A stretch of 64,000 nt of DNA. Origin: Arctopsyche grandis (taxonomy: Eukaryota; Arthropoda; Insecta; Trichoptera; Hydropsychidae). A model generated the notes under the pieces. It ran no database searches. It was not told where the DNA came from and worked only from the letters and a program-made list of their open reading frames with translations. Position numbers and translations under genes: made by a program. Every line of letters begins with the position of its first letter. Within the stretch, counting starts at the first letter, position 1. Of this stretch, positions 1,877 through 42,600 are shown piece by piece. Location of the stretch: NCBI RefSeq assembly GCF_051622035.1, contig NC_135358.1:18324501-18388500 (forward strand), given 5' to 3'.

Positions 1877-4800
1877 TCATGATTTCTTTGAAGCTAGTTT
1901 TTGAAGTCTAGCTTTCAAACCACCTTCTCTTTTTGGTTCGTTTTGAATCTTTGAAATTCTGTCTTCTTGTTGTCTCTTTTTCTCTTTCAGTCTAATAATG
2001 AAAAAACATATTTTAATGCAGCACAAAAATAACTAAAAAATTCCAGTAGGAAGGTTTACTTACTTTTCTTTAATCAATCTCTGTTCCTCTTTTTTCCATA
2101 TATCCTTGAAATCTCTGCAAAATTGAGACCAAGGATCAAAAAACTCCTTGGGGGAACAATCTTCTAATGTTCCTGACCTGGGCGAAAATTGGTAAAATAC
2201 CATTGTGTTTATAAACTTTATTTGGCACTCAGAGAGATTATCTTTTTCAGTGATTAATTGTTTTTCAGCAGTTTCTAAGAAGGTCATCATTTTATCCTTG
2301 AATGGTTGTAAATTGTCTTCCGACGATGCTTCAATAACTTTATTTGTTTTAGTCTCACAACCTATAATTATGTAAAAAAAATGCATTTAAAATAAATTAC
2401 AGTTTAATGACCTCTGTATAGTTAATATTTTTATTACTTTTCCACTGTTTTTGTAAAGAATTCAGTTCACTTGTGACTTCTTCAAATAAAATGAAAGAAG
2501 CTCGTCCAATGTCTCCAGGCTCGGGTATCGGTAGCGGAGTGTCAATTCCTTCTTTTGATTGAGAAATATATGTTCGAACAATGAAATGTAATAAAGTTAC
2601 ACTAGAGTCTTTAGACTGAAAACGAAATAAAGTAAATTTGGTTTATAAATATCAAAAATGTATGTACATAGTTGTCATTCTAGCATCAAAAATCTCACCT
2701 TTACATCTCTCAATTTAGACAGTATTTCTAAACCGAATCCATCAGCTTGACCTCTTTGTCTATTTCCACCATTCATATAATTCCCAAGGGTTAAAATTAT
2801 AGCAAAAAGTTTTTTTAAACCCTCATTTGTTATTAAAAACTAAAAAAAAAAAAACTAAATTTTATTAAAAAATTAAAAAATATAATTAAATCAATAGTTT
2901 GGAAAAAATATACCTCGCATGTTCTTTTAATATTATCCAATTTACTCGATATAGCCATAATCGAATCATCAAATTCTGCTTGAAAAGTAAAACAAGATAT
3001 TCTTTCAGCAAAACATTGAATATCAGATAAATCTAATAAAAACGTTTCTGGTTTATCTAACGGAATATCTGGAGACGTTTTTAAATGGTCCTTAATTTTT
3101 TGTAGTTCTTCTTCCGTTGCCTTCTATAAATAAAATTTAAAAAATCAAAAACATACATAATATATGTAACTCAACATTTGAAAAAGGAAACATAATATAA
3201 TATATAAATACATATGTATATTTTTAAATGTATAAAAAAAACACAAACCGCTTCATATATTTGGTGCAATGCCTCTAAATTCACAACAGTAGTGTCAAGA
3301 TTGTAAATTGCATGTTCAATTTCCTGAAATTCCACATGTAAGCTTTGAGCTAAAATTCCTACATTTTGAAATCTTTTTCCATCCAAAATTTTGGCTGCCT
3401 GAATTTTGGAAGGTTTGTCATCTACTTTTTTCTTTGTTGGCTTTCGTGTAATTACTTGTCGTGAAAATAAATCGGCAAATTCGTTTATATTTTCCAATAC
3501 TGTTTCTTCTATTTCCTGTTGTCAATTTTTATCAATTTTATACATATGTAAATAGAAAATATATTGGTATAAGTTAAAATACTTAAAAATATCCACACTT
3601 ACCAGCCATAATGGCTTTTTAGGTGTAATAGGATCTGTTGTTGATACTGTTTTTATTTCACTTGGTGCTATAATTCTAGTCCAATATAAAGGCTTCATTG
3701 GTACAGACGGATTTACTGGTTCTTTTCTCAAAGCTATAAGTATTGATTTTTTTGTGATTTTTACATTGGATTGAACAATAAACTGTCATTTCTAACAATA
3801 TATGCAAATATCTCACCAGCTTTGTAAGGCTGCCATCCGCCTATCGGTGGGGCTGGAAATGGAACTGGAGCCATTCCCGGCATTGGTGGGGGAGGTATTC
3901 CTGATGGTGGTGGTGGAGGCATCCCTGGGACTGGTGGAGGACCTGACCCTGGTGGTAGTCCCATTCCGGGCATAGGAGGAGGTGGTGGTCCCATTCCGGG
4001 CATAGGAGGAGGTGGTGGTCCCATTCCGGGCATAGGAGGGGGTGGAGGTCCTACACCAGGAAAAGGTGGTGGTGGAGGTCCCATTCCAGGCATAGGAGGA
4101 GGTGGCGGTCCAGCTCCTGGCATTGGAGGTGGTGGGGGTCCAGCCCCTGGCATTGGAGGAGGTGGAGGTCCTGCATCTGATACAGAAGATGTAAATACTT
4201 CCATACCTGATATAGGGGGTGGGGGCGGTGGCTCTGATTTATTTTCAGAAGTTGTTGAAACAACATCATTTATTGATACCTCAATGGTAGAAACAGGAGA
4301 TGACGGTTCTGATTCAAGTAAGGTTGGAAGGGGGTCTCCAGAAGTTGATGTTGGCGGCGGCATTGAAACATAATTAGCTGGGGGAGGTGGTGGCAGTGAA
4401 TCATCTGTTATTGATGATGCTTTATCAGTCAACGGAGATGGCGGAGGAGGAGTTAAACTAGTAGGTCCAATATCTAAAGGTTCGACTTTCTTTAAAAGAG
4501 ATTTAAAAGGTGAAAATAAACCGTTCTTCAATGAAGATTCCGCATCTCCCATTAATGGAGGGGGCGGTGGAAAATCGGCATCTGATATTGGAGATAATGA
4601 TCTAAAATTATTGGTATTTATGTCAAGATCGGGTAAAGGAGGACTTATATTATCATTAAGAGGTAAAGAGATTTGTTCCTCAGAAAGTTTTTCATGCATA
4701 GATAGCGGCGAAATTTTATAACTATAAGTCTTGTCTCTGTCTTGAATTGAATTTGGAGACAAATCATCTACTTTTGGCTTCTCATTACTGGATATACATG

Positions 4801-7800
4801 AATCATAAGATTTGCTGAGATCGCTTTCACGAATTGATTCTTGATTTACAAGATCAAGTTCATCATTATTTACAGAAATATCATTATTAAAAAACGGAAC
4901 AGCTCTTTCAATTCTACCAAATTTATCGTTAAAATCTGTTGTATTATGCATATTAGAATCATTACATAGTAAATTTTTAGCTTCTACATCGGGCGAACCA
5001 AAATCTCTGAGTGCATTTTGTGTAAGACTTTGAATTTCAATTAGGGTTTTATATCGTTCAAGTTCCCGAGATAAATTATTGACAACATTTTCTAATTCTT
5101 TGATTCTTTGAGTGGCAACAGGATTTTCAACTGTGTTCTTGTTACTGCTTAAAATGTCTTGCTCGTTATTTTGAACCCTTAAATTGAAAATTTCGTTATC
5201 ATTCTTCGGACTTTCCGATTGAAGATCCAATTTGTTATCGCCAACGGGTAAATTTATCTTTTTCCTTCTAGAATTTGGTGTCAATAGGTCTGGAGACTTT
5301 GAATTACAATCTTGTGTGGGAGGCCAAGATACAGTATGTATTCGACCTGGAGTTGCTGGCGTAGCGATAGGGGCTTCAGTGTGAGCCCAATAATACATCA
5401 AGTCAGGCTGAAAACAATTTTCGAACATAATTTAAAATACAGTTAAAAGCGATTTTCGACAATTAATCAATATTGGTAATTGAATAAAATTATAAGTGCA
5501 CAATATTACATACAGTCAACTTCTCATTAACAACAACTCTATCGTTACTATGATATTAAAAAAAATTCCATGTGAAAATTATTACCCTAAATATGGACTC
5601 ATTAGGAGCATCTTTGTCAGTGATCTGTCGGAGCACTCCGGCAGCTAGCAAATGGGTGCAGTACTGAGTTCCAATAATACGCAAATCCTGCCCAGTGAGC
5701 ACCATTCGCAAATAATGATTTTCAGCAAAGGCAGAAACAAACCAATTCACCAACATTTGTCCTGCAAAATAACGACAGATTTAAATTAGTGAGAGGCATA
5801 AATAAGCGTTATACAGCATTTCGTCATACATCCTCGACCGCCTACCACCCACTTACAAATGTGCTTAATGTGTGGAACAAGATTGCTTTAATGCACACTA
5901 AATACAGGCTATTTCAAAGTTATAAATTATCAAAAAACAATATTTATATTTTTTTAACTCATATAAACTCTCTAGTGTTCAACTAATATAATTAATTATA
6001 TAAAAAAATATAACGTACATATCAAACATAATCACAAATATTTCTTAACACCAAATCGTTATTGTTAGATATTTATCACGGCCAAGTATTATGATAATTG
6101 ATTATCATTTTGATCAGCATATTTCGCAGTATTTTATGGCAGTGTGGTAATTAAATAATGCTATTATTGATCAGTGGTATGTAATATCTGTCACAAAACT
6201 GATATAATACATATATACATAAAGTAGATAAAAGATATTTTAATTTATACATTCATACATATGGTACATATGCATTACTATCTACTCACATACACGCAGA
6301 ACTTTTGGATAATATCTGCTGTACATTGAGAAGAGATAATATGGTACACTTCAAAACCGCAAAACGAGTTTGTGTTATATAAAGGCATATAATATATGCA
6401 CAAGGAGGTGGCGAATGACTCGTACAATTGAATACCATGCTGCAACAATAGAAACACTTAAAAGTGGGCGAATTTCGGCACGATTCGATCATTTTAAAGT
6501 ATTAATTAAACTAAAAATGATATAATAAAAGAATATAGTAAAATGAGTTGATTGTTAAATAACAAATTTCAAACTACTTCAGGAATAATATAATAGTATT
6601 TTGATGGTTATTGTAAGCTATTATAATACTTAAAATTTAAAATCATGAATCATATATTTTGAAACTCAGTTTTTTTTTATCAGAAACTATTATTTTTAAC
6701 TATTTAAAAATGTTTATGAGAAAATTTTTTGAAATAACCACGAAGTCATTGATCATTTCATTTAGGCGGGAAAAAAATCAACAGAAATTCAAACGCAGAG
6801 AATTGACAGTTTGCTTACGTAAATATTATATAAGTCGACATGCTTTGGGACACTTTAATTAAGTTTCCATTTAATTTTGCAGAAAAGTATTGGCGATATA
6901 CACATACGTACCAGTATTATCGTACGTAAATAAAACCAAACAACAAAATATAACAATCACAAACACTGACAAATCACAGCTGACGTGTTAACAGACGTGT
7001 ATGACAAACTGACCTATGCACACGGGTAGATTTTTCATAGACGAAGGTAAAACGTGTCTCGAGAACTTGACGACGCTTTTCTCTCTGGTGCTGACGATGA
7101 CCAGACCTCTCCTGAGATCGAACTTGATTCGAACGTCGCATCCTTTTCCATAGTAGACGAAGAGGGTGAGAGGACTGTCGCAGGAGAATTTCGCCTTGAT
7201 TCGAATACCGGCATCTCTCAACGTCGGAGGAGGCATCAGACGAGGAAGAGCCAGTCTAATGGCAGCGATGATTCGAGAAAAATCAATATTTCTCTTCAGA
7301 CCGTTGTTGAACGACGGAAACAAATTTGAGTAGTTGAGGCCGCGCGTGCCGAAGTGGGCTGATAGTCCTAAAGACGGTCTGCCGTAGAAGAACGACAAAT
7401 CCGACTGGAAATGCATGGTGGCTGGTGTGCCCACTTGCGACAATAAATATTTACAAGTTTCGCTGTTGTAGGTAGCACCAGGGACGTAGCGTGTGCTTGG
7501 TCTCACTGAAGTAAGCGAAAGTGCAAAGTCGATACTAATCTTATCTACGCGATCTAATTTTCTTATCTTAAACTCGGACAGTAAAATTCACTTCAGGGAT
7601 TGCCAAAAAATTAACCGAAATAAATTATTCGTTAGTAGAAGATAATTTAATGAATCTAATCCACTAGTCGTGAACTAGAAGCACGTATGTATGTACATAT
7701 GTACATACTATAAAAATATCATTAATACTTCTGAAACCAAGAACGAGAAAATTTATCAAAATGAAACCTCATACTGAAGTATAATAACACTGAGCAACAA

Positions 7801-10800
7801 AAAATCACGTTTTTGAGTTACCAGAGCGGAGACTAACCAATCTTTACTAAGTTTAACCCACTGAATTCGAATATGATATTGATTTTTGTTGGTGGGTGAT
7901 CGTTTACGAGATATGAGCGTTTAAAAAAATCCGCGATTTTTACAGTTACTCAAAATTTAGGATTGTTACGCTCAAAGTGAGTATTGGAATCAATAGTCAG
8001 ATATTTTTCCTATTAATTGTTATATTTCATTGCTTTAAAATACTTCTAATTAATTGTCTAGCGAATTTTAAAAGTCAAAAATATATTTTTTTTTTACGGA
8101 TTTTTTTTTCTGTGCTATTTTTCATTTATTTGGCAAATTTTTTATTTCACAACGTTTTTAAGGATTGGTTTTCTATCTCAATATTTTTTTTTTAATCTAA
8201 ACGTACTAACTAAAGCGGTAATTGCAATTTAAATGCTTTCGTTGTATATATGGTTGTATCGCGTAATATGTTAGGGCAAGCGAGATGGCATATAATCCAC
8301 CTCACAGAGTACAACTGTGTATCTCAAGTCCAATTATGATTTTTACACTTATAATTCAACTTCTTAAGTTGAAACAATCCAATTGAAACCCATTATTTTT
8401 TACACAGAACACCTGGTTCAAACTAGATATACATACGTATAATGACACGTTTGTTGTTGAATGTGATAAATCCTATCTAAAGCGTTGGTGATTCTACCCA
8501 CAAAACTGCTAAGCTCCCACACATTATTACAACCAATATTTTTCTAAAATGTTATTTCAAATCGATCAACATTTTCTTATGTATGTACATGTGTAAAAAG
8601 TCTATTACAGATTTCCAACATTAAATTACTACACCACTGAACTGAACGAATAGCGAAATTTATTCAAAACAAAACAATACGATATACCATAAATCGAATA
8701 ACCAAAATAGTTTTAACGTCATAAAATTATTTATTTTATCAATTAACAACTTACTACGGATATCTCTGAAGAAACAATAGTGTACATATGTACATATGTA
8801 TATAATATCAGTAGTAAGTAGCACTCGCTATCTGTCTCCTCCACACAATAGGCGTCTTTCATCGGGTAAATACAAAATGCTCCATATAAAACTTGAGTGT
8901 TGAATTTGAATAAAACTTAATGTTAAACACTCGCTGATATAACGACAAACAGTTGTCACATCTACATATACACCAATGTATATATTTTTAAGCTTTTATT
9001 GTGAATAAGCGAAAACAGGAACTGCCTCTCATTAAACCTTTTGACTGACATGCATCGCTAACCGCCGTGACGCAGTCAAGTCCGACCATCGTAATAAATG
9101 CAGTGGAAAAAAAAAGACGTATAATGCATGTCAAGAGCATTTTACATTCGTATACAAATTTGAAAAATGCGCTGAAACGTTAAAAAAAAACATTTATAAA
9201 TTTGTTTACCTTCGAATTTTTCATAAATTTGAAAGTCCAACTTTTCGGGCACAAATTTCGGCTTGGAGACTTTTGATTCCAAAGTTGCCCTATCCAATGT
9301 GAGTGATGCTACTTTTCTGAGAACATTAGAATCGCCGATGACGGGAGAATCGCTCATAGAAGAGTGACGTCTGTGATCTCGACCATCGTCTGAAACAACG
9401 AATCACAAAATCAACTTCAAATGTTACTACATACTACATAAATCAACTAGATCAAAGCTTTTTAACCCTTTGGCTGCTACGAGGTTTTTCAATGTCCAAG
9501 CGAAAAATGCTAACATTTGTAATTATTTTGAAAAAAAATAAATATAATATTTTTTTTTACATACTTACTTCGCCGAACAGTCGTAATTTTTATAATACTT
9601 TATATACATTTTTAAGAAGCAGTCGTGGACTCGTGCTCTCTTTTTCTGTCTTGCTTTTACATGCGTGCGTGCGAAAGAGATACCTACATATATACACTAA
9701 ATAAGTTTTGACGATTGTTTTCCGAGGCTTTATTCTTTTCAATAATCTATTTTTAGATATCGATGTATCCTTACAACATGCGATATATTCGAAACAGGTA
9801 GCGGTCTCTCTCTCTTTCTTTCTTGGTTTTAATTGTGTACGTGTGAGCGAGACACACAAGGATGCGAAGTTTCTAATAATCAAATAATTTTTCAACATGT
9901 ATCATAAACATTTTGTATGCATTTCAGTTGCATTTGATTGATTGCATGAATTCGTGACGTCTCGTGACCTATATAATTGAAAGCGGATTTCTATTGTTTT
10001 TTGCCGTTTATTTTAACTCTGCAAAATGATATCGGACAGTGAAAGTGATGAAAGCGAAATAATAGCTCCTCGCCGAGGAACTCGACAAATCAGCAGCTCT
10101 ACTGATTCTGAAAATGAATTTATCGACAATAATCAATTCCCAAGTAATAACTCCTTATATGACATTGACAACGAACCCGAAATTTACTTTGATGATGAAC
10201 CCGAAATTGAAGAGCTTTTATTTAAAAAATTGATAAATATTTATAAAGCTTGATTGAAAAATAAATATAAATACGTATATAAAAAAAATGTTTCGTGCCA
10301 CTGATGCGCTGGTGGCTCAAAGAAAGTATTGAAATACGACAATTAATGACGTCAACAACGATCGTCGTAGCAATCTTCGCCGATTTCAAAACAACGATTT
10401 ATCGTTGTTGTAGCAGTCAAAGGGTTAAGCAAAAGCTAACATTTACATAATACATTATATTACTACTGAATAAACTGAACCTTTCTTAAAAATAGTCACA
10501 ATATATCCAATAGATTCAATTTTAATATAAAATATCTTCACATTTTAATTTATAATTTAGAAATAAATTCAAATCAACCTATAATGGCGTTTTTATCCAT
10601 ATAAAAAATCATACATAAGAAACCACAGCGTCACTGTAACCAATTCTTCTGCGCGTCAATCTTTTCTGTGGTTACAAGTATGTACATATGTATGTATGTA
10701 CATAAGTAGTTATACACACACATATATGTATGTATTACAATTAAAAAAATAACCAGTGAAAATCTATTCAAGCATACTACATAGTATAATATCATCTATT

Positions 10801-13800
10801 CAGCAATCTTTTTATTGAATTTTACGGTCAATTAAAGCTCTATGAATGCAAATTCAATACACTTTCGAACTTATCTCTTCTTATGTACGTGTGCAAGTAT
10901 GTACATATGTATCTTTCCATAGATACTATGTTAAATTTAACAGACGATAACAAAAGTCGTCATGGACTCTTGGTTTTTGCCGAACGAAATCGTTGTACCA
11001 AATCGCTGGAAAAAAAATATATAAAAGCCTATAATACAACTGTTCGAAACGATTCGAACAGTTTATCTTGAATTATTATTGAGGAAATGTTCAACATTGT
11101 TACAATCTTGAAACAGACGGTCTTCAAGACGATTCATAAAATAGTGAATTCAAGTAAACACCGCCAAAATTACACGGTACCGTTGCGTCTGATTGTTGTT
11201 TTTTTTGTTGTTAATTTTCTTCACTTCTTAAATTTTCATTACAATTGAATTTTGGCGAAAATTACATTTAAAGAAAATATATGTTGCTTCTTTTCAGAGC
11301 ACATAAGTTTTACTAAGGAAAGCAATCACACGTGCATATAAATCGTAATCCTTTATACCGGGTTGACACGATACGAGTGCACGTTGCCACTTCACAATAG
11401 TAGCCAACGAGTAGTCCGAGTGACCAACTAAACGAACTTGGTACGAGTGCATTTGTATCGTGTCAACCCGGAACTAGAAACAACTGTGTATCATTGACTT
11501 TAATATAGGGAATTGGCAACAATTCACTAATTTTCTTAAATTATTTTTATTTTAAATCCACTAAAAATGACTTCAGACTGACTGACATACGTTTGATACT
11601 GGATCGCACAATGGGGTTAATTTAAAGTAAACATTCAGCCAATCGGATATAATTAAGATTGCAAAATACAATGCAACTGACAATAAAATCTGGAACGGAA
11701 GTATCAAAAAGAATTAACGAATAAGAATTTATTGTACAGGAATTATATTGAAATTTTCGTATTAATTAAAAGTTGGTACTCGAAATCCCACGCATTTCGC
11801 TATGCTTGGTGGCCTGTGAAGTAAACGCTTTAATTATTCATATATGCTAACAATAAAAGCCCAAATTCATCTAAACAATGCACACAAGCAGTATGATAAG
11901 ATTAGGTAAAAATTCATTATTAAAATGCGGAAAAAGGACGTACAAATCCGACCGCTCTTCATTCGTTATCACAGATAATATTATGCGTCCTATTTTTTTA
12001 TTATTTATTTACACCAGTCAATACAAATATTTCGATCAACTATTTAATTACATCACATGTCTCGTTATTTATATTTCATTAATCACTAGTACAATAGTCT
12101 GCTATTGATGAAAATTTTATTCACTTGTGTATAAAAAAAAAATTAAATAATGCCTGTATCTATTTAACGTTTAAATACATTAAATGTTTTTAAATAACAT
12201 AAAATTTTTTGTATACATATATATCAGTGGCGTGGTGCGGATATCTCACTGTTTTCGTCGCACAGCCTTACTTATGTACGTGTGCGCGAGCAGGATACAA
12301 GGGGACTCGCTATTACGTCACCTAGTCCCCTTGTATCCTGCTCGCACACATCTAAGTAAGGCTGTGCGACAAAAACAGGGAGAATTCCACAGCACGCCAC
12401 ATATAATATATACATATAATATATGTATGTACCAGTGGCGTGCGGTGGAAATTTATCTGTTTCTATCGCGCAGCTTTATTTACATTTGCGCGAGTAGGAT
12501 ACAAGAGGATGCTGTCACGTCATACCACACCCTCTTGTGTCCTGCTCGCACACATGTAAGTAAGGCTGTGCGACGAAAACAGGGAGAATTTGACCGCACG
12601 CCACTGGTATGTACATACATATATAATAAAAAAAAACTTTGGCTTAAAAATTGTTTTTGTTTACATATGTATGTATATGTATTTGTTAAAGTTTATTGTT
12701 TTTGTTTACATACATATATGTATTTGTTATTGTTTTTATAGTAAATATATGTATGTGTTAAAGTTTCGTTACCGTAACAACTGCTATGCGTTCTTAATTT
12801 AAGCATTTTAACATTTATATAAATATTATTTTGCATTACTGCAATATTATTTTGCATTTTTTTGCTCTCTAGAAAGCAAAAACAAGGTTAACAATAGAAA
12901 TTAACAATAGGATCCCGATTCAGTGCATTTTCGCGCCTATCTCTGATTATAACTAGAGAACGGACCCAAAGCGCGCCGCTCATTGTTCAATTGTTGTAAA
13001 TGCTTTGTAAAAAAGGTTCGACAAACCTTTAAGAGGGCTGGACAGCAGCGCATTGTCCATACAAACGTACTATACTTCTCCCTACCTCAATTATGGCACT
13101 AGAGAAATTATTTTTTAATATGCTATGGATATCCACCATTGGGGTGCATCTATCGTTTTTTTTTTTTTTTATTAATTATTTTTATATGAGCTAGGAGCCG
13201 CCAAACATCTATAAAATCGCCTCTTTTTTACACCCACGAAAAGAGTCTAGCGTGGTTATTTAACGGTCGATTTAAAAAAAAATACGCCGATAGATGCACA
13301 GAAAATATCTTTCTCATACCGATGATGAAATTTTTTTAAAAATTGGTCGAGTTTTGGAGGAGAAAATAGTAGAATACGAAACCTCGATTTTGTCAATTTA
13401 AAACACGTTTTATCTGGTCGAAGCGCAACTGTCGCATTCACTCAATATATATATTGATATATATTGTCGCATTCACTCAATATATATATCGAAGAAAGGA
13501 ACGGTAACAAAATTAAGGTTTCGGGTGTACAGCCCTCTTAACAATGCATTTACAACATTTGAACAATGAACGGCGCGCTCTGGGTCCGGGCTTTAATTAT
13601 AACATTCAAGTAATATATAAGAAAAAAATTCATCGAAGTCACTATGTATTACGTACGTAAAAATTGAAATTTATATTTATTTTAATTAAAATTATAATTT
13701 TCACATATGCATGCCTTAGACGAAAAAAAATTATATGTATATATGTATACATACATATATATAAATTGAGAAAAAAATGTTCCAAAATTGGGGTGACACC

Positions 13801-15042
13801 ACTGTCAGTATATGTATATGATATTTAAGATTCTTCAAGAATTATTTATAAATGATACTTGAATTGCAACTTTTATATATGTACATATTATATGCATTGC
13901 AAAAAAATCAATAATACGATAAGCCTTTTTACATGAAAAATCATTTGACAGTTATAATCACTGTAGTCAAATGAACAATACAACGTTGAAGCATATTTTT
14001 CACACATACCTGTGGCATCTGAGGGTTTCGAAGGTGGTATCTCCACTTTCCTGTGCCTGGACAACGTAAACGAAGTCACAGGAGTAGATCCTTTCAATTT
14101 GAAATCACACTCATTATCGTCGACACCACTGTCATCCTTGGTAGGACTACCTATGAAGAACTTCCCGCTCTCCATTAGTACACCGCTATCGTTAACTTCC
14201 TGCTGTTGTTGCTGCTGCTGCTGCTGTTGTTGTTGTTTGACACTTTCATCGCCGTTGAATATCTGCGTCGGCAACCGTGACCCAAGCCCCGAGTCCATCG
14301 AATGAGCACCGTTGTCGGCACAAGCGTCCGGCATCGTATCAGCCACGAGAAACACAGTGTTGAGGTCCTCACTGGAACGATCGTCCAGGCTCACCCGGCT
14401 TATCTTCGACACACTCAGCTTCTCCAGTCGAGACTCGTTCCTGCGTGATTTCGACTCGACATGCAAGACCACATCCGAGGACCTGACGTCGTCCGGCGTG
14501 GCTGTGACACTCTCCTCCGAATAATAAGCGGCGTTCAGCTCTGCAGCGAATCCTCCAGGTGTTAGGGGATCCGTGAATACCGATTCGGAACTGGACTCCT
14601 TGCTCGGCGGGCTGATCTCCTTCTTCTTGGCGACGGAGAGGAGACCATTCTCGGTGGTTAGCTGGGTCGGTTTGGCCGGCTGTTTGGTAACGTTTGCTTT
14701 GTTTTGTTGTCTGAGCGAGTTGTCGAGGTTCGACGACCTCGACCCGCTGCGGTTGGAGACCCTCTCTGGTTCCGCTACGGCAGACCTCTTCGTCGTCTGA
14801 TCCAAGTCGGTCGAGTCCTTCTCGGTTCCCGGTGTCTCCGTCACCAGATCGTCCATCGACTCCTGGAGACTCTTCGTGACGGTCGAGCATTGCGAGGGTG
14901 ATTTCTTCCGCAAGATAGATTTAGTCTGAACGTCTTTACCTGTCCCTTTTTTGTTGCCCAAATTCTTTATCAAATTCTTTCCCTTACCTGGACTCTTGCC
15001 GGTCTTCGGTTGTTTACCCTCACTTCCTTGTAGGTTACCCAT
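1877..15042 (-). CDS. capu: Cappuccino, FMN-family formin (actin nucleator), 11 coding exons
   Basis: Formin that nucleates and elongates actin filaments; in insects it works with Spire in oocyte polarity (family knowledge). Exons, 5' to 3': 15042-14010, 9389-9210, 5761-5586, 5407-3817, 3733-3603, 3515-3249, 3123-2914, 2839-2699, 2615-2438, 2361-2064, 1991-1877; total 4,320 nt, 1,439 aa, all GT-AG with matching phases. Residues 1-7 (MGNLQGS) fit an N-myristoylation start, so I chose the ATG at 15042. A 13-glutamine tract follows in exon 1. Exon 2 ends in YEKFEG and joins QMLVNW, the same junction as in Drosophila Capu. FH1 is about residues 853-993, with seven GPPPPPMPG-type decapeptides. FH2 begins near residue 1007 (MKPLYWTRI) and continues through [18 protein letters not shown]. 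The basic tail [17 protein letters not shown] resembles the formin-Spire interaction (FSI) motif. The first intron (4.6 kb) holds many transposons. Confidence 0.95.
7014..7505 (-). CDS. capu: Candidate symmetric cassette exon within capu
   Basis: A 492-nt open segment in the second capu intron, preceded on the minus strand by a pyrimidine-rich CAG acceptor and followed by G|GTCAGT. Both borders are phase 1, exactly like the flanking junction, so inclusion inserts 164 in-frame residues between YEKFE and GQMLVNW. Codon usage is GC3-rich (TTC, AAC, TAC, ATC), like capu exon 1 and unlike the surrounding intron. The peptide is basic, with stretches such as [19 protein letters not shown] and [17 protein letters not shown] do not recognise a domain. 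An internal ATG with a good context (GCCACCATG) at 7413 would also allow use as an alternative first exon. The opposite strand has an 91-codon open frame in exact codon register (ending 7329), but it has no ATG and no good splice sites, so I treat it as a mirror. Confidence 0.55.
9466..10424 (+). mobile_element. Decayed piggyBac-type transposon in capu intron 1
   Basis: Ends are CCCTTTGGCTGCTAC on the left and the inverted CCCTTTGACTGCTAC on the right (one mismatch in 15). Each is flanked by TTAA (9462-9465 and 10425-10428), the hallmark target duplication of piggyBac elements. At 959 bp it is much shorter than an autonomous element (2-3 kb). Inside is a 75-codon frame resembling only the acidic N-terminus of a piggyBac transposase. 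The catalytic core is absent, so this is an internally deleted, non-autonomous copy. Confidence 0.85.
10026..10253 (+). pseudogene. piggyBac transposase N-terminal remnant
   Basis: A 75-codon ATG-to-TGA frame with an acidic, serine-rich start ([12 protein letters not shown]) followed by [16 protein letters not shown]. This is typical of the disordered N-terminus of piggyBac/PGBD transposases. The DDD catalytic core and the C-terminal cysteine-rich domain are missing because the element is internally deleted. It sits between TTAA-flanked TIRs and is transcribed opposite to the host gene capu. It cannot encode a working transposase; whether the short frame is expressed is unknown. Confidence 0.7.
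11358..11471. mobile_element. 114-bp MITE with 17-bp perfect TIRs
   Basis: Begins CCGGGTTGACACGATAC and ends with its exact reverse complement. The interior has no coding potential, but a GTACGAGTGCA-like word occurs near each arm. Lies in capu intron 1. I could not read a clear target duplication, so the superfamily is unassigned. Confidence 0.75.
12225..12400. mobile_element. Foldback MITE, copy 1 of a tandem pair
   Basis: Starts CAGTGGCGTG and ends CACGCCAC. Nearly the whole length folds back: the arm containing CGCACAGCCTTACTTA and GCGAGCAGGATACAA has its complement 60-80 bases downstream. Only the middle (about ACTCGCTATTACGTCACCTAG) is unpaired. Together with the next element it creates an open frame across 12184-12741 that I regard as spurious. 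Confidence 0.8.
12433..12606. mobile_element. Foldback MITE, copy 2 of a tandem pair
   Basis: Same family as the element ending at 12400: CAGTGGCGTG at the left, CACGCCACTG at the right, and the same internal arms (GAGTAGGATACAAGAGG against CCTCTTGTGTCCTGCTC). It is separated from copy 1 by only about 30 bp of TA-rich microsatellite. The two copies differ at many positions, so this is not a recent duplication. Confidence 0.8.
12961..13588. mobile_element. Foldback element interrupted by a TTAA-specific insertion
   Basis: Left arm starts CGGACCCAAAGCGCGCCG; right arm ends CGGCGCGCTCTGGGTCCG. Arms of about 45 bp, including TTGTTGTAAATGC and GCATTTACAAC, pair imperfectly. The centre, which should read AAACCTTTAACAATGC, is split at TTAA by a 505-bp element (13033-13537). 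Without it the host element is only about 119 bp. Uninterrupted relatives are at 61.52-61.62 and 61.66-61.73 kb. Confidence 0.8.
13033..13537. mobile_element. TTAA-flanked non-autonomous element (piggyBac-like MITE), copy 1
   Basis: Starts GAGGGCTGGACAG and ends with the inverted form GTACAGCCCTC. It is flanked by TTAA at 13029-13032 and 13538-13541, giving a TIR of about 8-12 bp and the target preference of piggyBac-like elements. No ORF of transposase type is present. The interior includes a poly-T stretch and an imperfect TATATATCAATATA-type repeat near 13445-13490. A second copy lies at 58302-58829. Confidence 0.8.
13744..13900. repeat. ACATATGTATGTACATAC-type microsatellite patches
   Basis: Short self-complementary runs of the words TACATA, CATATG and TATGTA. 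This type recurs dozens of times through the window (for example 7688-7705, 10680-10705, 47740-47765, 60370-60435, 61795-61850). It appears to be a genome-wide low-complexity feature, not a discrete element. Confidence 0.6.
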
Positions 15043-16932
15043 GATTCTAAACAATCGAACGCCCACAATTCACTATTCAAATTCGAACGAATATTGTATA
15101 CAAGCATTGCGTGATTGTCACATGTTTACAGCAAACCCGCCCTCTTCGCCGATCCATCTTCCCACTCCTTCACATCCTCACTCCTGAAGGATTCCTTTCC
15201 GAATTTTCAGCTGCAGTGTCACTCTTGTTTGTTGGGAAAGGAGTTGGTCGGATCTGCTCATGCGTCGAGCCGACCCAATAGTCCCGGTAACCGCCTACCG
15301 CCCAATCGATAAACAGTGCTCTCAGCGATAACCTTTTTTTTTCTATTTGCAAATTTTGTTCGAAAACAATACAACAATTTGTAACGAGCACATGGATTGC
15401 GTCGATCGGAATTGTCACTCGTGGTTGCACACAACTGTAACCCATAACAATACGAAACGCACTAATTAAATGTTCGGCATTAATTTAAAAAATAACGACA
15501 ACTCAAACCATATATTTATGAATCACCAATTTAGCATCCTGCTTAATTTTATTAAATTTCCATTTTATTTTTACGAGGCGTTGGGTAAGTTTTAAATTAA
15601 TAGGGAACAAATAAAAAAACTGTATTAATAATAAAACGAATACATTGATGAAGACTTTTTTTAAACGGAAAAAATGTCGCCTTTTAATAGTACGAATCGT
15701 GACAAAAATACACTGCCTCATGAGATGAAAACACTGTTCAATTAATGACCTCTTCCATAATACAATAGTTAAGCATTGAAATTTTATAACTTAAAGTAAA
15801 GTCCTATGTTCCCATCGATTAGTAATAAATGAGAACATTATTGTAGACTCTGATTTCACTAATATTCTAATATGCTATTTTTAGCATTTAAATCTAAATA
15901 AAAAAATGCTGTATCAACCAATGAAGAAATAAATGAATATTACATATATACTTTTAAAGAATAATTAGAGAGGAAAAACACTATAATGACTGGCCATGCG
16001 ATAGCCGTTGGATTAACATCGATTGACGGCCAATTAATATTATTATTTAATGTTTTTGGACCATTGTGATTAAAGTAAGAACCTAATGCGCCACAATGGT
16101 CTACATAAGAAAACAAACAAAAGAAAAATAGAACACAAAAATTAATATAAGGAGAGAAAAAAATAATAAAATAAAATTTATAACATAATATATATGACAA
16201 AAAATCCCTGCGAGGCACAAATGAAAGAGAGAAGATTCCACTCATATTTAAATCACATTCAATTATGAAAATAATTATGAGCGCAGGCTACCAGACAAAT
16301 AGGTTAGAATAATATCCGATAATCTACGTTCACTGAGGTGGAAAATATGCATTCAGACTCAGCAGCAACGATTTCATTAAGAAGTCGAATAGCTCTTGGA
16401 ATAGGAGCCATTCGAAAAAGAGGTACAATCATCAAATGATGATGTCTACCACGTACATACATAATTATTAGGGATATAAAGTCCCAACTGTTCCAATATA
16501 TTGCTATCAGTTAATAGTGAATAAGAGCATTATTGAGGGCAGAATATTTGTCCCCAAAATATAAATAAAATTAACAATTTTTTTTTATATAAAAAGGTGC
16601 ATTTGTGATTATACGTAGGTTGTGATTATACAACACAATGGGGCCGTCGACACCAACAATAGTTTCCATATCCAGTTCCTAAATAGCAACCACAGGTTGC
16701 AATATGGGAACTGGATATGGAAAATATTGTTGGTGTCGACTGCCCAATCGATTATGACTATTGTCAATTTCAAGTATTATGGCCAAATCTTTTTTGACAT
16801 GTTGACGTTTGTAGGTTATGTGCACGTTGACTATTTGAAGTTAGTGTTTGGTATTTAAAGCCATGGAAGTTTATTTTTGGAATAATAGTAAGATATGTGC
16901 ACCACCAATAAATTCATACAAGGATACTGAAA
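15043..16932. other. Divergent intergenic region between capu and the NEPRO-like gene
   Basis: About 1.9 kb between two head-to-head genes. The first 280 bases next to capu are relatively GC-rich and probably hold its 5' UTR and promoter; no core motif is convincing. Farther right the sequence is AT-rich with one foldback element (16640-16745). No coding exon is supported. Confidence 0.5.
16640..16745. mobile_element. Foldback MITE about 105 bp
   Basis: The arm around CCGTCGACACCAACAATA and TCCATATCCAGTTCC is followed after a loop of about 25 bases by its reverse complement, ending TTGGTGTCGACTGCCC. The arms of about 40 bp have only a few mismatches. It lies upstream of the NEPRO-like gene. 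No target duplication could be identified. Confidence 0.75.
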
Positions 16933-18148
16933 ATGAATTTGGTTTGTAAATGGAATCGTAAAAAGTTTAAATAATTTTTGTTTTCTTGAATATATAAATA
17001 AAAATGTATTTGTTTCATTAGATCTTTCAAAAATTACCACGACCTTAGAAGATGCAGTATGCGTATTGGAAAATCAACAAGTTTTGCATAAGGAAGCAGC
17101 TGTGTTATCCAGATTGATTTACAAGCTTGGAACGAAATTCAGACACGACATTGGATTTTCATACCTCCGAAGGACTAACGTCGCACTTCTAAAATATCTA
17201 AATTTGCAACTATTAAAAGACATAAATACATTTTTAGAAGTTATAACAAATGTTATACAAAACTACTTTCCAACTCGACAAATGTTTGAATTCATTTTGG
17301 TTAGACTACAAACATTTTCAAAAATAATGAGCAGAATTCACGTATGTTCAAAAAAAGCAGCTTCCTTTTACTTTGACCGGATAAGAAGAGGAGATGCATG
17401 GTGGTTGTCGTTTATGCCATATTCGGTGCTTTGCCGTATTTGGTATTTATCAAACCACTTATTGAAAAATGCTTGCAAGTGGTATGATAATTTGATTCTG
17501 TACAGAAATAATTTTCAAATCCTAGGAGTTACTTTTGTGCCTGAAGGGTATGAATTCCCAGTAGATTTGTATAAATGGCTAGAAATTGATGAATTTGATG
17601 ATGACAATCCATTGTTGAAACTACCTGAAAGTGAAATACAGGAAATTATATCACCCAATGTGTTAAATAATGAAGAAGTAATCTGTAAAAAAGGAAATCA
17701 AATAAACAGTCACATGCCATCTGCAAAATATCAGTCCAAACAACAGTTGGTTAGTGTTGGTGAAGCAATCTCACGTGATCAATATTTAGAGGAACACAAA
17801 TGCAATTTATCGATCAGCAGTGATAATGATGGCAATGCTAAACCGGAAATTGCTCCTGTTATTAAACTGGCAAATGTTAACAAAGAAAATAAATTGAACC
17901 ATAGTGTTAGACATACAATTGAGGCAGTTCAAAACGCGAAATCGTTAAAGCAGTTTATATCTGTAGAAGAAAATTATAGAAAAAACAATAATATAAATTC
18001 ACTAACACTTCATTTAGGCTTCATGCAGTGGCATTCACTGAAAATAATTATGTCTGGACTGATATCTAAAATAAATGATAAGAATAATAAAAAAATAATA
18101 AGTAAAATTAAAAAGGCATGGGAAAATAAATGTATTAATTTAAAGTAA
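16933..18148 (+). CDS. Nepro: Nucleolus and neural progenitor protein (NEPRO)-like, 2 exons
   Basis: Exon 1 is 16933-16957 (MNLVCKWN plus one base), then a 64-bp GT-AG intron, then exon 2 at 17022-18148; 383 aa. The frame of exon 2 is open upstream without an ATG, which is why I placed the start in the small first exon. The conserved region is residues about 20-180: a helical start (VLSRLIYKLGTKFRHDIGF), PTRQMFEFILVRL, a hydrophobic SFMPYSVLCRIWYLSNHLL stretch and FVPEGYEFPVDLYKWLE. This order matches the NEPRO N-terminal domain known from vertebrates. The C-terminal half is polar and ends in a lysine-rich tail. NEPRO is nucleolar and implicated in rRNA processing and progenitor maintenance in vertebrates; its role in insects is inferred. 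Exon 1 is less certain than exon 2. Confidence 0.75.
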
Positions 18149-30845: not shown

Positions 30846-33800
30846 TTAAACAATATTTATATCTTTCGGTTTATAGCAGGAACTTTCTTTGAGTAATCTG
30901 TCAATGTCCTCGAACTCGTAAAACACAATGAATTCAATCGGACTCAGACCTTCGAATATGCTGCATACACTTGGTTTCAAATTGTAGAAGAACAGAGATT
31001 GCTCACGAGTTTTAAAATCTGAAGTTAGAGACTGGATAACCCTAGCTGCTGTATAATCAGCTCCGTAAATGTGTGTACAGTCGATTACAACGGGTAAGGA
31101 TTGCTTGATTGAATGCTTTGTGACCAATTTTCTTACATAGTCTACAGATGGGAATATCAAACAGCGGTCAGGCGTCAACATTAGATATTGCTCACCGGCT
31201 CGACTCTATATTAAAAACATATGCAAGTAATTAAATGGCTGCTCCGTCATAATATCTTGAAATTAAATGTGTAAAATATCATATGCACTTACAGTTAAGG
31301 TTTCAACGGAGATTTTCGGACGAGCAGCATGGTATAAAATGAACACTACATTGACACCTATTCCAAGTAAAATTCCGATTTCAAGCGGCAACACTAAGCA
31401 GAATACAAATGTTCCTATACCAGGAATCAAATCAGACTCTGAAAATTAATTGTGTTTGTCAGTAACGTTCATATTTATTAGGTCCATTTAAATAATTTTT
31501 CTTTAAAAAAGATTTCACTTACTTTTCGATCTCCACATTGGTTTGACAACGTGGGCTTCTATCATAAATACAACAGCTGCTATTATAACGGCTGCCAATG
31601 CCGATTTCGGAATGAAAGCAAAGCATGGAGTAAAGAATAGCAGTGATAATATCACGAGCAGCCCTATATTAAAATATTACAACAATAAATTTATGTGGTT
31701 TTTAATTATGAAATGCATACACATATTTGAAAGTAAATCATACCAGTATACAATCCACCCAGTGGAGTCCGTACTCCAGACGAATGATTTACAGCAGCTC
31801 TAGCAACTGATCCTGTCACAGGATATGCTTGAACGAATGAATTCCCTATATTACTAGCACCCATCGCTAATAGTTCTTGTGTGGCATCAACAGTTTTTCC
31901 ATTAGCTGAAATTAATATTAATACAATTAATAACATTTTAATGCAGATATGCTTAAAATTCTAAATTATTGTATTTAAATTGCTCACCAAAAGCTTTACA
32001 GATCGCTATGTTCTCCAATAATCCGATGAGAGGAACTACAATTATACCAGAGCCCAAATCTGAACACATGTCAAAGAAACCAAACGTGGAATTGTCTTTA
32101 GTATAACTGAATGGTGGCAATTGAAAGCTTGGCATACCAGATGGAATATTTCCTAAAAATAAGATTTACACAACATAAAAATTAAATATGTACTATGACC
32201 ACAAATGAAAACTACGTAAGATACAGTTAATTCTTACCGATGAGTTTCATTGGTGCTTCACTACCATCATACGCAAATGAAAATCCGATAGCACCACAAA
32301 TTATAACTACAATAGCGTTTCTTGTCGCTCCGAAAATCCACAAAGCTTTGTTTATCACTTTGTGCTTGGTCGTTTTCAGTTCATCGTTTGCTGGACCTAT
32401 CTGAATCATGCCAATTACCTGAAATTAAATGCGTTTTGTTAGTTTCAATATCGTTATATTATGTATCTATGACAAAATTAAAATTGATATTAAAAAATAT
32501 AACAAACCCTCATGAGAAGTAAGATGATAATACAACATATGCCAAGAACTACATCCCAAGCTTTCGTATTGTGAATTTCGCTAAATATTGATACCCATTG
32601 CTGAAGGAAAGTGCTCCCTTTCACTGTTATACTCAAAATGTCTTTCATTTGTGATGTCAATATGATTAAAGCTACGGCTGATGTGAAACCCGATGAGACA
32701 GGTCCCGACACGAAGTCTATTAAAAATCCTGAAATGTAAAAAAAATATCTTATTATGGTAATATTTCAGAAAAGGATACACCAAATTATATGATGAATTT
32801 TTTTATCAGTTTTTTTAAGGTAGTAAAACAACAATATGTTTTATGGTGCTATTTTATACGTATGCATATTGTTTTTGACAAGGAATACAATACAATATTA
32901 TTGGATATGACAGGTTCAATTGAACGCCATCAGTTTATTTGAAATCAATATCTCCGTATATTGATTATAATAAATGCTAGAAGGTTAACGTTGTGAATTG
33001 ATCAAAGGTCTTTTTTCAAATTTATTTTTAATATGTATTTTTTTAAGAACTACGATGTTAAAAATATTATTACACTGACCTAATCCTAAAACACCCATTA
33101 GTAGTTCAATCACCCCAATCAGGAATGTGAGAAGAACGGCATGTTCGATACCGAATCCTTTACTTCCTACTGTCTGGTAGGTCATCAATGATGCAATTGC
33201 AGTAGGTCCCATTGGAACATCCTTACAACTACCAAGGAATATGTATATAAATGCACCAAGGAAAGACCCATACAAACCGTACTGCAAAAAACAAATACAA
33301 AAAACATAAATTATATATATACATTATATGGAATATGAAAACATTCTGATATATGTATGTATGTAATACATACTTGTGCAGGCAATCCGGCAATATTTGC
33401 ATAAGCTAATGATTGAGGAATAACCGTCAAACCAACAGTGAGCCCGGCAATCAAATCTCCCACTGCTTTGTCACCATTGTATCTGTTTAAAATAAACCGT
33501 TTAAATACAATATTTATTTATATAAAATATGTTAAATACGAAGATTAGAACTTACTGTGGTAACCATTCCAGTATAGGCAGTCTTTTATATAAGGTTTTC
33601 TTTGTGAACAATTTTGACGCCTTTGTCTTTGCCCACGGTATCACAGATTTTGCTGATTCCTTCCAGGAAACAGCTGGAGAGTCGTCAACGACTGTAAAGT
33701 AATAATACAAAATAATTTTATCTAGTCTGTTGCTTGTAATGATTCCGGGTGGGTCTATTGAATGTTTGCTGATAGGTTGTTCAGATTTGGTTTGCTTGTT

Positions 33801-39581: not shown

Positions 39582-42500
39582 ATCATCATCATCATCATTT
39601 ACAGCCATTCGCCATCCACTGCTGGATGAAGGCCTCTCCAACACGCTTCCACTCGTCTCTGTTTTGCGCAACACTCATCCATCTCATTCCGCACATTTTC
39701 CTAATTTCGTTCACCCATCTTCCTTGCGGTCTTCCTTTTACTCTTTTGCCTTCTCTCGGGTACCATTCAAGCACTTCTTTTGTCCACCTTTCGTCCATCC
39801 TCCTAGCTACGTGACCCGCCCATTGCCATTTCAATCTCTTCACTCTATCCACTATGTCCACTACCCTTGTCATATTTCTCACCCACGTGTTCCGCTTCCT
39901 GTCTTTCCTCGTTATGCCAAGCATACAGCGTTCCATACTTCTTTGAGTGCATTGGATTTTATTTTGCATCTTGGCGTTCAGTGTCCAAGTTTCACATCCA
40001 TACGTCATCACTGGCAAAACGCATTGATCAAAGATCCTTTTCTTCAGGCAGAGTGGCATTTTTGATTTAAAAACAGCATTCATCCGTCCAAATGCACTCC
40101 ACCCCAATTTCATACGTCTCTTTATCTCTTCATTTTTACTACCAGACATGTCAATTATTTGACCTAAATATAAATAATTATTTACTACTTCTACTGGTTT
40201 ATCATCTAAGGGGATGCTATCAGGCATGCAATAACTATTGAACATTAGTTTAGTCTTATCTACGTTAATTTTTAATCCTACTTTTCTACTTTCCCTGTCC
40301 AGCTGTGTTAGTCTGATAAGTAGGTCAGCTGAATCACGAGCTACTAAAACTATATCGTCTGCGAACCGAAGGTGACTCAAAAAGCGACCATTGATGCTTA
40401 CTCCGGCTGTATCCCAATCCAATTTCCTGAAAACTCCCTCAAGCACCGCATTGAATAACTTGGGCGAGATTGTATCTCCTTGTCTTACTCCTTTTCCTAT
40501 GCTAAATCTATCTGTACCTGAAAAAATTTTAACTGAAGCTGTGGCATTCTTATATATTGTAGCTAACAGTCCCACATAGGGTTCCGGCACTCCCTGTGTT
40601 TTTAGAGCGTTAAGTACTGCATTATGACTAACTGTATCGAAGGCTTTCTCATAATCGACGAAACCTAGGCACAGTGGCCGTTGATATTCGTTGGCGCGCT
40701 CGATTAGTTCGCCAACTACTTGGAGGTGGTCCATTGTGCTGAAATTTGCCCTAAACCCTGCCTGCTCTATAGGTTGGTTCTCGTCGAGGATATTCTTCAG
40801 CCTTTCTGTAATAACCTTCGTGAAGAGCTTGTAGACCGCTGAAAGTAGACTAATGGGTCGGTAGTTCTTGATATCGCTTTTGTCGCCTTTTTTGTGTATT
40901 AAAATGATAGTTGCGTTATTCCATCCTTCTGGTATAGCTTGGTTCTGGATGCATTTGCTGAAAAGCCTAGCTAAGATATTAATTAGGGGGGGGCCGCCAC
41001 ATTTTAGTAAGTCGATGGGAATATTATCTTCCCCTGGGGTTTTACCATTCTTTGCAGTTTTTAGCGCGGCCTCTACTTCGCTAGGCAATACTGCAGGAAC
41101 CCTTTGGCCGTGTGTCGATTCCAGAGTGGGGAATTGGCCGTTGTCGTTCTCGTATAGTTTTGCATAGAACGTGTAAACTCTGTCTATGATTTCTTCTCTA
41201 TTCCTAATTATTACTCCGCTCTCTGATCTGATTGCGATCATTTGGTTTTTGCCTAAGAAAAGATCCTGTTTGCACTTTTTCAGGCTACGGTTATTCTTAA
41301 TGGTATTTTCTATTAGCTTGCTGTTAAAATCCCTGACATCCCTGACTATTCTCTTCTTAATTTCCTTATTTACTAGATTGTATTCTTGCTTATTATTATC
41401 CCTATCTAAATTCCTTTTATGCTTAATTAGGTTTTTTGTTTCCGCTGAAATTTTGCTTAATTTAATCTGTTTCCTGAAACCACCTAATTTCTTACCTGTT
41501 GAGGTTAGAACCGAACTAATTACAGTGTTCAATTCCTCGATGTCTGCTTCTGGGTTTAATTTCCCGTATCGATTTCCAAGTTCGAGTTCGAATTCCTTTT
41601 TCCTAGACCTTAGTTGAGCGAAATCTGGAGAGTTACTGCATCCTTTTATTAATTTCCTACGTTCGCAATTTATATTAATGGCCATCTTGGCACGGACTAA
41701 TCTGTGATCGCTGCCTATATCTACTTTACTTAAAACACTAACGTCTTTAACGGAGTGCAGGGCATTTGTTAGGATGAAATCGATCTCGTTTCTGTCTCCT
41801 TTAGGACTCTCCCAAGTCCACTTATTGTTGGTGTTTTTCCTGAAAAATGAATTAGTGATGAAGAGCCTGTTGTGTTCTGCGAATTCTATGAGGCGATCGC
41901 CTCTGTCATTTCTTTGGCCGGTACCAAAATTGCCTACTGCTCTTTCTGTGTTTGCCTTTTGTCCTATTTTTGCGTTAAAGTCGCCCATGATTATTTTAAA
42001 GTGGTGGCGGCTATTATCGTATGCGCCCTGTAGTTTTTCGTAGAAGTCTTCTATTTCCTCGTCTGGGTGGCTAGATGTGGGGGCGTACACTTGGAAGATT
42101 TGACAAGTGTACCTGCTCGAGATTCTTAATACTACATAGCATATACGTTCCGATATGTCGTTTATTTCTATAATATTTCTTTCTATTCTCTTATTGATAA
42201 GAAACCCTACTCCTCCTATTCTACCATTTGGTAGCCCTCTCCAGTAGAGACAGTTACCACTTTTTAGGATTATTTGGTTTCCCTGTTTTCGTCTTACTTC
42301 GCTAAGTCCTACTAAATCCCATTTGATACTTTCTAGTTCATTCTCTAATGCAAGCACACTTCCTTCACTCGATAACGTTCTTACATTGTACGTGGCTAAA
42401 TACAGGTTTCTATTAGCTAAGCTATCATCCATCGTCACTCTTACCTTGTTGGAGGTTTGGATATTATTTTTCTCGCATTTATCCAAGATGTGTTGAGAAA

Positions 42501-42600
42501 AAGGCGGTACTTGAGAGAGATTTCCATTCAAGGAGTGAGTTCTTACCGCCATAAACTCTTCTCTGTGGTCAGCTTTGACATATAGTCATCCTAGGTATCA
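39582..42600 (-). mobile_element. RTE-clade non-LTR retrotransposon, apparently full coding length
   Basis: Minus-strand element with one long ORF and a 3' tail of (ATG)n at 39582-39598, the microsatellite tail typical of RTE elements. The 5' boundary is not sharp in the sequence; 42600 is approximate, a short distance above the ATG at 42552. A 5'-truncated relative is at 26443-27003. No obvious target duplication could be read because the 3' flank is low-complexity. Confidence 0.9.
39595..42552 (-). CDS. RTE retrotransposon endonuclease-reverse transcriptase ORF, intact
   Basis: 985 codons without stop or frameshift. Residues about 50-290 are an AP-type endonuclease: ATYNVRTL (53-60), VGLSEVRR, IMGDFNAKIG, WTWESPKGDRNEIDFIL and SDHRLVRAK. 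Residues about 520-800 are the reverse transcriptase: HKKGDKSDIKNYRPISLL, AGFRANFSTMDHL, FVDYEKAFD (about 634), GVRQGDTISPKLFN and the catalytic FADD (about 732). The C-terminal portion has TYGCETW and RLKWQWAGHVARRM, usual in RTE proteins. All visible catalytic residues are present, so the element may be young. The TGA stop lies in the (ATG)n tail. A second ATG at residue 41 could be the real start. Several plus-strand frames over this region are shadows. Confidence 0.95.
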   Translation of the reverse strand: MAVRTHSLNGNLSQVPPFSQHILDKCEKNNIQTSNKVRVTMDDSLANRNLYLATYNVRTLSSEGSVLALENELESIKWDLVGLSEVRRKQGNQIILKSGNCLYWRGLPNGRIGGVGFLINKRIERNIIEINDISERICYVVLRISSRYTCQIFQVYAPTSSHPDEEIEDFYEKLQGAYDNSRHHFKIIMGDFNAKIGQKANTERAVGNFGTGQRNDRGDRLIEFAEHNRLFITNSFFRKNTNNKWTWESPKGDRNEIDFILTNALHSVKDVSVLSKVDIGSDHRLVRAKMAININCERRKLIKGCSNSPDFAQLRSRKKEFELELGNRYGKLNPEADIEELNTVISSVLTSTGKKLGGFRKQIKLSKISAETKNLIKHKRNLDRDNNKQEYNLVNKEIKKRIVRDVRDFNSKLIENTIKNNRSLKKCKQDLFLGKNQMIAIRSESGVIIRNREEIIDRVYTFYAKLYENDNGQFPTLESTHGQRVPAVLPSEVEAALKTAKNGKTPGEDNIPIDLLKCGGPPLINILARLFSKCIQNQAIPEGWNNATIILIHKKGDKSDIKNYRPISLLSAVYKLFTKVITERLKNILDENQPIEQAGFRANFSTMDHLQVVGELIERANEYQRPLCLGFVDYEKAFDTVSHNAVLNALKTQGVPEPYVGLLATIYKNATASVKIFSGTDRFSIGKGVRQGDTISPKLFNAVLEGVFRKLDWDTAGVSINGRFLSHLRFADDIVLVARDSADLLIRLTQLDRESRKVGLKINVDKTKLMFNSYCMPDSIPLDDKPVEVVNNYLYLGQIIDMSGSKNEEIKRRMKLGWSAFGRMNAVFKSKMPLCLKKRIFDQCVLPVMTYGCETWTLNAKMQNKIQCTQRSMERCMLGITRKDRKRNTWVRNMTRVVDIVDRVKRLKWQWAGHVARRMDERWTKEVLEWYPREGKRVKGRPQGRWVNEIRKMCGMRWMSVAQNRDEWKRVGEAFIQQWMANGCK

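Follow-up and report, generated by a model that had tools for sequence, protein, structure and literature searches.

A candidate optional coding exon in an intron of a putative cappuccino gene of Arctopsyche grandis

A 492-nt open segment on the minus strand of a 64,000-nt stretch of Arctopsyche grandis DNA (the window) is very probably coding. It lies in an intron of a formin gene that we read as cappuccino (capu), and with a probability of about one half it is a genuine host coding exon of that gene, used in some transcripts only. An optional capu exon is the most likely use of the segment, and a small gene nested in the same intron is the main rival to it.

The host gene was rebuilt as 11 coding exons and ten introns with one open frame of 1,439 aa, whose C-terminal end reads KLASKKS (Table 1). 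An FH2 domain is recognized on one exon (PF02181, E=1.6e-9), and the proline-rich repeats of exon 4 (FH1) precede it. The spliced C-terminal 449 aa match 17 distinct PDB sequences, all named formins, the best being diaphanous homolog 1 (E=7.1e-29). DIAPH1 and DAAM1 stand above Formin 1 (ninth) in this ranking, which is no phylogeny. When the host tail was searched against PDB, no formin tail was found and the sole match was HEXIM1 (E=2.5). The reading of the gene as cappuccino is based on the motif YEKFEGQML of Drosophila Capu. One donor of the model, AAA/GTAATA of intron 9 (2437), was picked over another GT for frame, and the modelled intron 6 has an unusual donor, GCG/GTTTGT at 3248 on the minus strand. 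The protein encoded by exon 1 starts with MGN, like vertebrate FMN2, and may be N-myristoylated. The base composition of capu is a mosaic, with a GC3 of 0.59 in the 5′ open frame (frame 13891-15069, partly non-coding) versus 0.23 in the FH1 frame.

Table 1. Positions, in the window, of the putative capu exons, the candidate optional exon and associated features
Feature	Position	Strand	Evidence or remark
Candidate optional capu exon, 492 nt, phase 1-1, would add 164 residues	7014..7505	-	frame, codon score, single genomic place found
Stop-to-stop open frame enclosing the candidate exon, 199 codons plus stop	6988..7587	-	
Candidate acceptor TGCACTTTCGCTTACTTCAG; the tract ahead of its AG has 10 pyrimidines in 12	7506..7525	-	
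Candidate donor TAG/GTCAGT, C at +3	7008..7013	-	
Internal in-frame ATG within GCCACCATGC, from which an alternative 5′ exon may start	7414..7416	-	
GC island, maximum-likelihood segment	6975..7531	-	48.7% GC vs 29.0% in the rest of the intron
Interspersed repeat in the capu intron, about 280 nt upstream of the candidate exon	7783..8313	.	matches found stop short of the exon
capu coding exon 1, phase-1 donor	14010..15042	-	
capu coding exon 2, phase 1-1, ends YEKFE/G	9210..9389	-	
capu coding exon 3, begins GQMLVNW	5586..5761	-	
capu coding exon 4, proline-rich FH1	3817..5407	-	
capu coding exons 5-11, which carry FH2 and the tail and end in the stop TGA (1879-1877)	1877..3733	-	

The intron that contains the segment spans 9209-5762 (3,448 nt) and has phase 1. 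A first-pass annotation of this DNA, made from the letters alone, had described a 492-nt open segment inside it, and when positions 5400-9600 were re-read on the minus strand, the segment was recovered with exactly the same coordinates, from 7505 to 7014. AG and GT stand at its borders as had been described, its length is divisible by three and each end has phase 1. The annotation had also named 9210/5761 as the capu junction around the segment, which is correct given the limits of the rebuilt intron. Since the phase is that of the interrupted junction YEKFE/G-QMLVNW, insertion keeps the frame and introduces no stop. At the upstream border, CGCTTACTTCAG is followed by TGAGACC, and at the downstream border, GTGTGCATAG is followed by GTCAGT. 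The spliced product with the segment would read YEKFE-V-RPSTRY...LPVCI-GQMLVNW, with 164 residues added between YEKFE and GQMLVNW. The insert is basic, with a pI of 10.3 over 163 aa, which bears out a further part of the original description.

Of the reading in the first-pass annotation, the coding-like, in-frame, phase 1-1 and basic character and the want of a recognized homologue are supported, while splicing into capu mRNA, optional use and restriction to one lineage are predictions. The splice signals are mixed. In a comparison that was picked after the segment had been seen, the pyrimidine tract of the candidate acceptor was matched or exceeded by four of the 150 AGs of the intron, itself counted, and among ten capu acceptors, one is higher in pyrimidines, two are equal and seven are lower. 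By a ten-site capu matrix, the same acceptor ranks 88th of 150 with a score of -5.4, and the left-out scores of the ten capu acceptors, -4.4 to 11.8, all lie above it. The sites of this matrix come from capu alone, with junctions placed by eye for frame and formin sequence. The candidate donor ranks 19th of 229 by the corresponding ten-site matrix and falls within the range of real capu donors; its C at +3 is seen in none of ten capu donors. The segment coincides with a GC island, and the limits of this island within 2 log units (6951-7018 and 7500-7558), likewise a test picked with the segment in view, enclose both proposed splice sites.

Open-frame length by itself is only moderate evidence. 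When the 492 nt are dinucleotide-shuffled, at least one of the six frames is open in 112 of 20,000 cases. With any AG accepted, the longest phase-compatible AG...GT cassette of the 3,448-nt intron measures 540 nt, and it is exactly 7505-7014 when the acceptor needs eight pyrimidines in 12. With any AG, a cassette of at least 492 nt appears in 16 of 2000 shuffles that keep the GC island and in none of 1000 shuffles of the whole intron, while the other long intron of capu has a longest cassette of 183 nt. In DNA of the same genome (20 stretches, 200 kb), seven of 120 window-strands of 3,448 nt reach 492 nt; labelled by eye from their translations, six of these are gene or transposon and one is unrecognized.

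Codon choice is stronger evidence than length. Codon use had initially been described as coding-like, and this holds under a model trained on 20 kinase exons of the same genome when the segment is set against shuffles and GC-matched windows. Models built on just two or three genes of the window could not split sense from antisense; under the kinase model, each of the 20 kinases, when left out, scores highest in its sense frame among the six. For the sense frame of the segment, the total is 0.025 bits per codon and the synonymous part 0.111. For comparison, the total is 0.048 in the ribosomal L4 exon of the window and -0.001 in capu exon 1. Their synonymous scores (0.035 and 0.047, respectively) are below that of the segment, as are those listed for eight of the 20 kinases, which are at most 0.047. 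When the best of six frames is taken, none of 3000 dinucleotide shuffles of the segment reaches its synonymous score and 15 reach its total; in the same single frame, neither score is reached in 3000. Among overlapping genomic windows with a GC content of at least 0.42, drawn from 17 of the 20 sampled stretches, the synonymous score is reached in 0 of 113 and the total in one, which sits in a long open frame of sampled stretch L006. At a GC content of at least 0.45, neither score is reached in 36 windows. Both scores are also unmatched in 400 random 489-nt windows read in six frames; these are mostly AT-rich (23 have a GC content of at least 0.42 and eight of at least 0.45), so that the shuffles and the GC-matched windows are the fairer test. 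As positive controls, the L4 exon and capu exon 1 were shuffled, and their own total and synonymous scores were reached in 0 of 500. Two kinases were shuffled likewise; one of them (L027) does not pass when the synonymous part is taken by itself, as 41 of 500 shuffles reach it. The amino-acid composition of the segment is not kinase-like, as 226 of the 400 random windows score as high.

In a scan for coding segments, the stretch 7054-7491 scores 48.8 bits. Antisense echoes of the segment itself (up to 19.2) aside, the remainder of the two long capu introns scores 11.1 bits at best. In the 200 kb of sampled DNA, two segments exceed 48.8 bits (53.2 in the GC-rich stretch L018 and 51.3 in the long L006 frame), and the raw scan score alone is therefore not decisive. 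The same scan overlooks capu exon 2 and scores exon 3 at just 13.0 bits, which indicates that AT-rich exons would escape it. The codon model is itself blind to AT-rich genes, with true frames scoring -0.353 in the FH1 exon and -0.332 in a NEPRO stretch.

The 164 residues had been recorded as having no recognized homologue, and they remain so in Pfam, PDB, PHROGs, NCBIfam and viral, phage, plasmid and prokaryote collections, all non-insect. Protein and DNA searches of the 475.7-Mb assembly of the same genome, which skip common words and score only the best candidates, yielded no second copy, and a local tblastn search of the sampled 200 kb and the remaining window had no match below E=0.36. We therefore use "orphan" to mean that no relative was found in the collections searched, among which the own genome is the sole insect. 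A Pfam match to PF16450 (E=0.19, 12.1 bits against a cut-off of 23) was taken as chance. A viral, phage, plasmid or bacterial origin was rejected as no relative was found, the best phage matches having E=8; some of these searches used six peptide patterns each and detect close relatives only, and an insect virus could be the source. A transposon or retrocopy was rejected in turn, with no second genomic place among the candidates scored by protein or DNA search. The N-terminal domain of MGRN1/RNF157 was also considered as a homologue, on a first hint of 33% identity over 48 residues (E=0.007) from one comparison with an insect-like sequence. Against a human sequence, shuffles scored as high in 18 of 500 local and 16 of 500 global alignments, and the candidate was dropped as near chance with inconsistent aligned parts. 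The repeat upstream of the segment is 84% identical to L012:1823-2247 over 7783-8187 and 78% identical to L012:2484-2256 (inverted) over 8062-8313.

If the segment is coding and is not spliced into capu, it could belong to an independent small gene that sits in the intron in the same orientation. Translation would run from 7416 (ATG) as far as the stop at 6988, either free of capu splicing or with further exons that are AT-rich. The match in phase would then be a one-in-three accident at the donor. The Kozak-like context of the ATG, the host-like codons and the continuation of the open frame beyond the proposed donor to its stop all suit such a gene, as do ATTAAA at 6875 and 6859 and an initiator-like TCATTT upstream of the segment at 7764. 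However, the coding signal and the rise in GC begin near 7491-7531, well ahead of the ATG, which fits an internal exon better than a gene beginning at this ATG. The stretch 7900-6701 has no AATAAA, and no TATA box occurs within it upstream of the segment, which is mild evidence against a self-contained gene. Apart from antisense echoes, no other segment of the long introns exceeds 11.1 bits, in a scan that would overlook AT-rich exons. We consider a nested gene unlikely. Less likely again is a relic, that is, a sequence once coding or a captured fragment (e.g., viral or transposon) that has fallen out of use and stayed open by luck. The empty homologue searches would fit a relic, as would the interspersed repeat about 280 nt away and a GC3 of 0.56 against 0.23 in the downstream FH1 exon. 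Against it, 199 codons run without a stop, synonymous choice is that of kinases in the same genome, and the GC3 is close to that of the capu 5′ open frame and the L4 exon (0.60). Furthermore, a single place was found in the own genome, by a tool that scores best candidates, and the repeat matches found stop short of the segment.

There is a small probability that the segment is part of a non-coding, GC-rich island (an enhancer, for instance) in which the frame is open by chance and the splice-like borders were picked from among many AG and GT dinucleotides. Chance accounts for the unremarkable length seen in the shuffles, for the one window-strand in 120 with an unrecognized cassette as long or longer, and for an acceptor that is weak by the small matrix; an antisense frame that contains stops scores well too. 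It does not account for a synonymous score that no shuffle reached, even at best of six frames, and no GC-rich genomic window equalled, and the proposed splice sites lie inside the limits of the GC island. Highly improbable is a coding plus strand with the minus-strand frame as its shadow. In the complementary register, the plus strand has an open frame of 92 codons at 7051-7326, and another antisense frame ties with the sense frame on the total codon score (0.028 vs 0.025), with a synonymous score of 0.046 that one of the 400 random windows reached. Yet the antisense frames carry seven, six and 13 stops across the segment, six of them in the frame that ties, and their synonymous scores are at most 0.046 vs 0.111 for the sense frame. 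A long shadow frame likewise lies opposite the ribosomal L4 exon, and Pfam is blank on the 92-aa plus-strand frame and on four plus-strand pieces.

The closest known systems are other formins. Drosophila Cappuccino shares with the host gene the FH1-FH2 plan and the junction YEKFEGQML, and differs in that EKFE is joined there directly to GQML. We know of no inserted domain at this junction in Drosophila Capu, and none was reported among the titles and abstract openings listed, which included few subscription papers. For mouse formin-1 (FMN1), PMC2423616, which cites Zhou, Leder and Martin 2006, describes the isoform-specific exon 2 as a microtubule-binding peptide. This exon resembles the predicted capu segment in that it is found in a subset of isoforms, lies in the N-terminal half of a formin of the FMN type and adds a peptide with FH1-FH2 kept. 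The mouse exon has been tested experimentally, whereas the capu segment is predicted and is likened to it without sequence comparison. Drosophila Fhod, according to PMC10797183, has isoforms with variable N termini and tails. Here too, splicing alters a formin outside FH1-FH2 and hence its activity or localization; Fhod differs in belonging to another formin subtype, and the activity switch demonstrated for it sits in the tail (PMC10797183).

We infer the transcription and splicing of the segment, its protein fold and its effect on Capu activity. An optional capu exon could take two forms. It could be a cassette that lies between coding exons 2 and 3 of capu, or it could open the coding region of a shorter isoform, with translation beginning at the internal ATG; both had been proposed at the outset, and both are compatible with the segment. 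Inclusion would add a basic domain of 164 residues (134 if from the ATG) just before GQMLVNW. The EKFE/GQML junction falls near residue 240 of Drosophila Capu, within the Rho-binding stretch, and Bor et al. in 2012 reportedly mapped an inhibitory domain at about 222-321. By homology, the insert would be located in the Capu N-terminal region reported to bind RhoA and restrain activity. A cassette would split this regulatory segment, and a start at the inner ATG would replace its first part. Inclusion may then yield a formin with changed autoinhibition or localization and the same FH1, FH2 and tail.

In Drosophila, residues 125-250 of Capu bind RhoA (PMC2034408), and the N and C termini are described as forming an autoinhibitory interaction although DID and DAD are absent (PMC5047451). 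GFP-CapuDeltaN, which lacks residues 1-270, rescues spire mutants with a higher penetrance than GFP-Capu, suggesting more activity (PMC2034408). The same source reports that capu oocytes are rescued without the N-terminal 270 residues, which are dispensable in this respect; a change in this region need not matter, which argues against a vital role. Capu governs oocyte actin and axis formation. If the segment is spliced in, a natural exon that splits or replaces the N-terminal segment would let the autoinhibition model be tested directly, and it would be a case of a domain without known relatives entering a conserved regulator. If capu transcripts do not carry it, it is, all the same, a good candidate for a nested gene of small size. 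A fuller account, which we regard as doubtful, is that a globular, basic orphan domain either originated in a capu intron of one insect lineage or was taken up by it. The domain would then have taken on host codon use and be switched into the region of Rho binding and autoinhibition, which would give a splice-regulated, de-repressed or re-targeted Capu. For such a domain, modelling suggests, at very low confidence, helices followed by a five-strand meander; the single-sequence AlphaFold prediction of the insert has a mean pLDDT of 36 and is too poor for use.

Other features of the window were noted along the way. A NEPRO_N domain gene (16937-18145, plus strand, E=2.8e-41) adjoins capu on the opposite strand. 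The ribosomal L4 family exon used above for comparison (PF00573; 24721-25356, minus strand) is mitochondrial L4 by its look and has a 209-codon frame opposite. A STAS domain exon (30849-31205, minus strand, PF01740, E=6.5e-9) probably belongs to an SLC26-type sulfate transporter. By its domains, the 996-codon open frame at 39598-42585 on the minus strand is a non-LTR retrotransposon copy, carrying PF03372, PF14529 and PF00078 (endonuclease and reverse transcriptase) with no stop. An acidic stretch that the plus strand seems to encode at 10050-10420 is, by eye, like the N terminus of a piggyBac-like transposase. Two related repeat copies around CACAGCCTTACTTA...GTGTGCGAGCAGGA occur at 12200-12620 and, also by eye, perhaps represent a short interspersed or foldback element.
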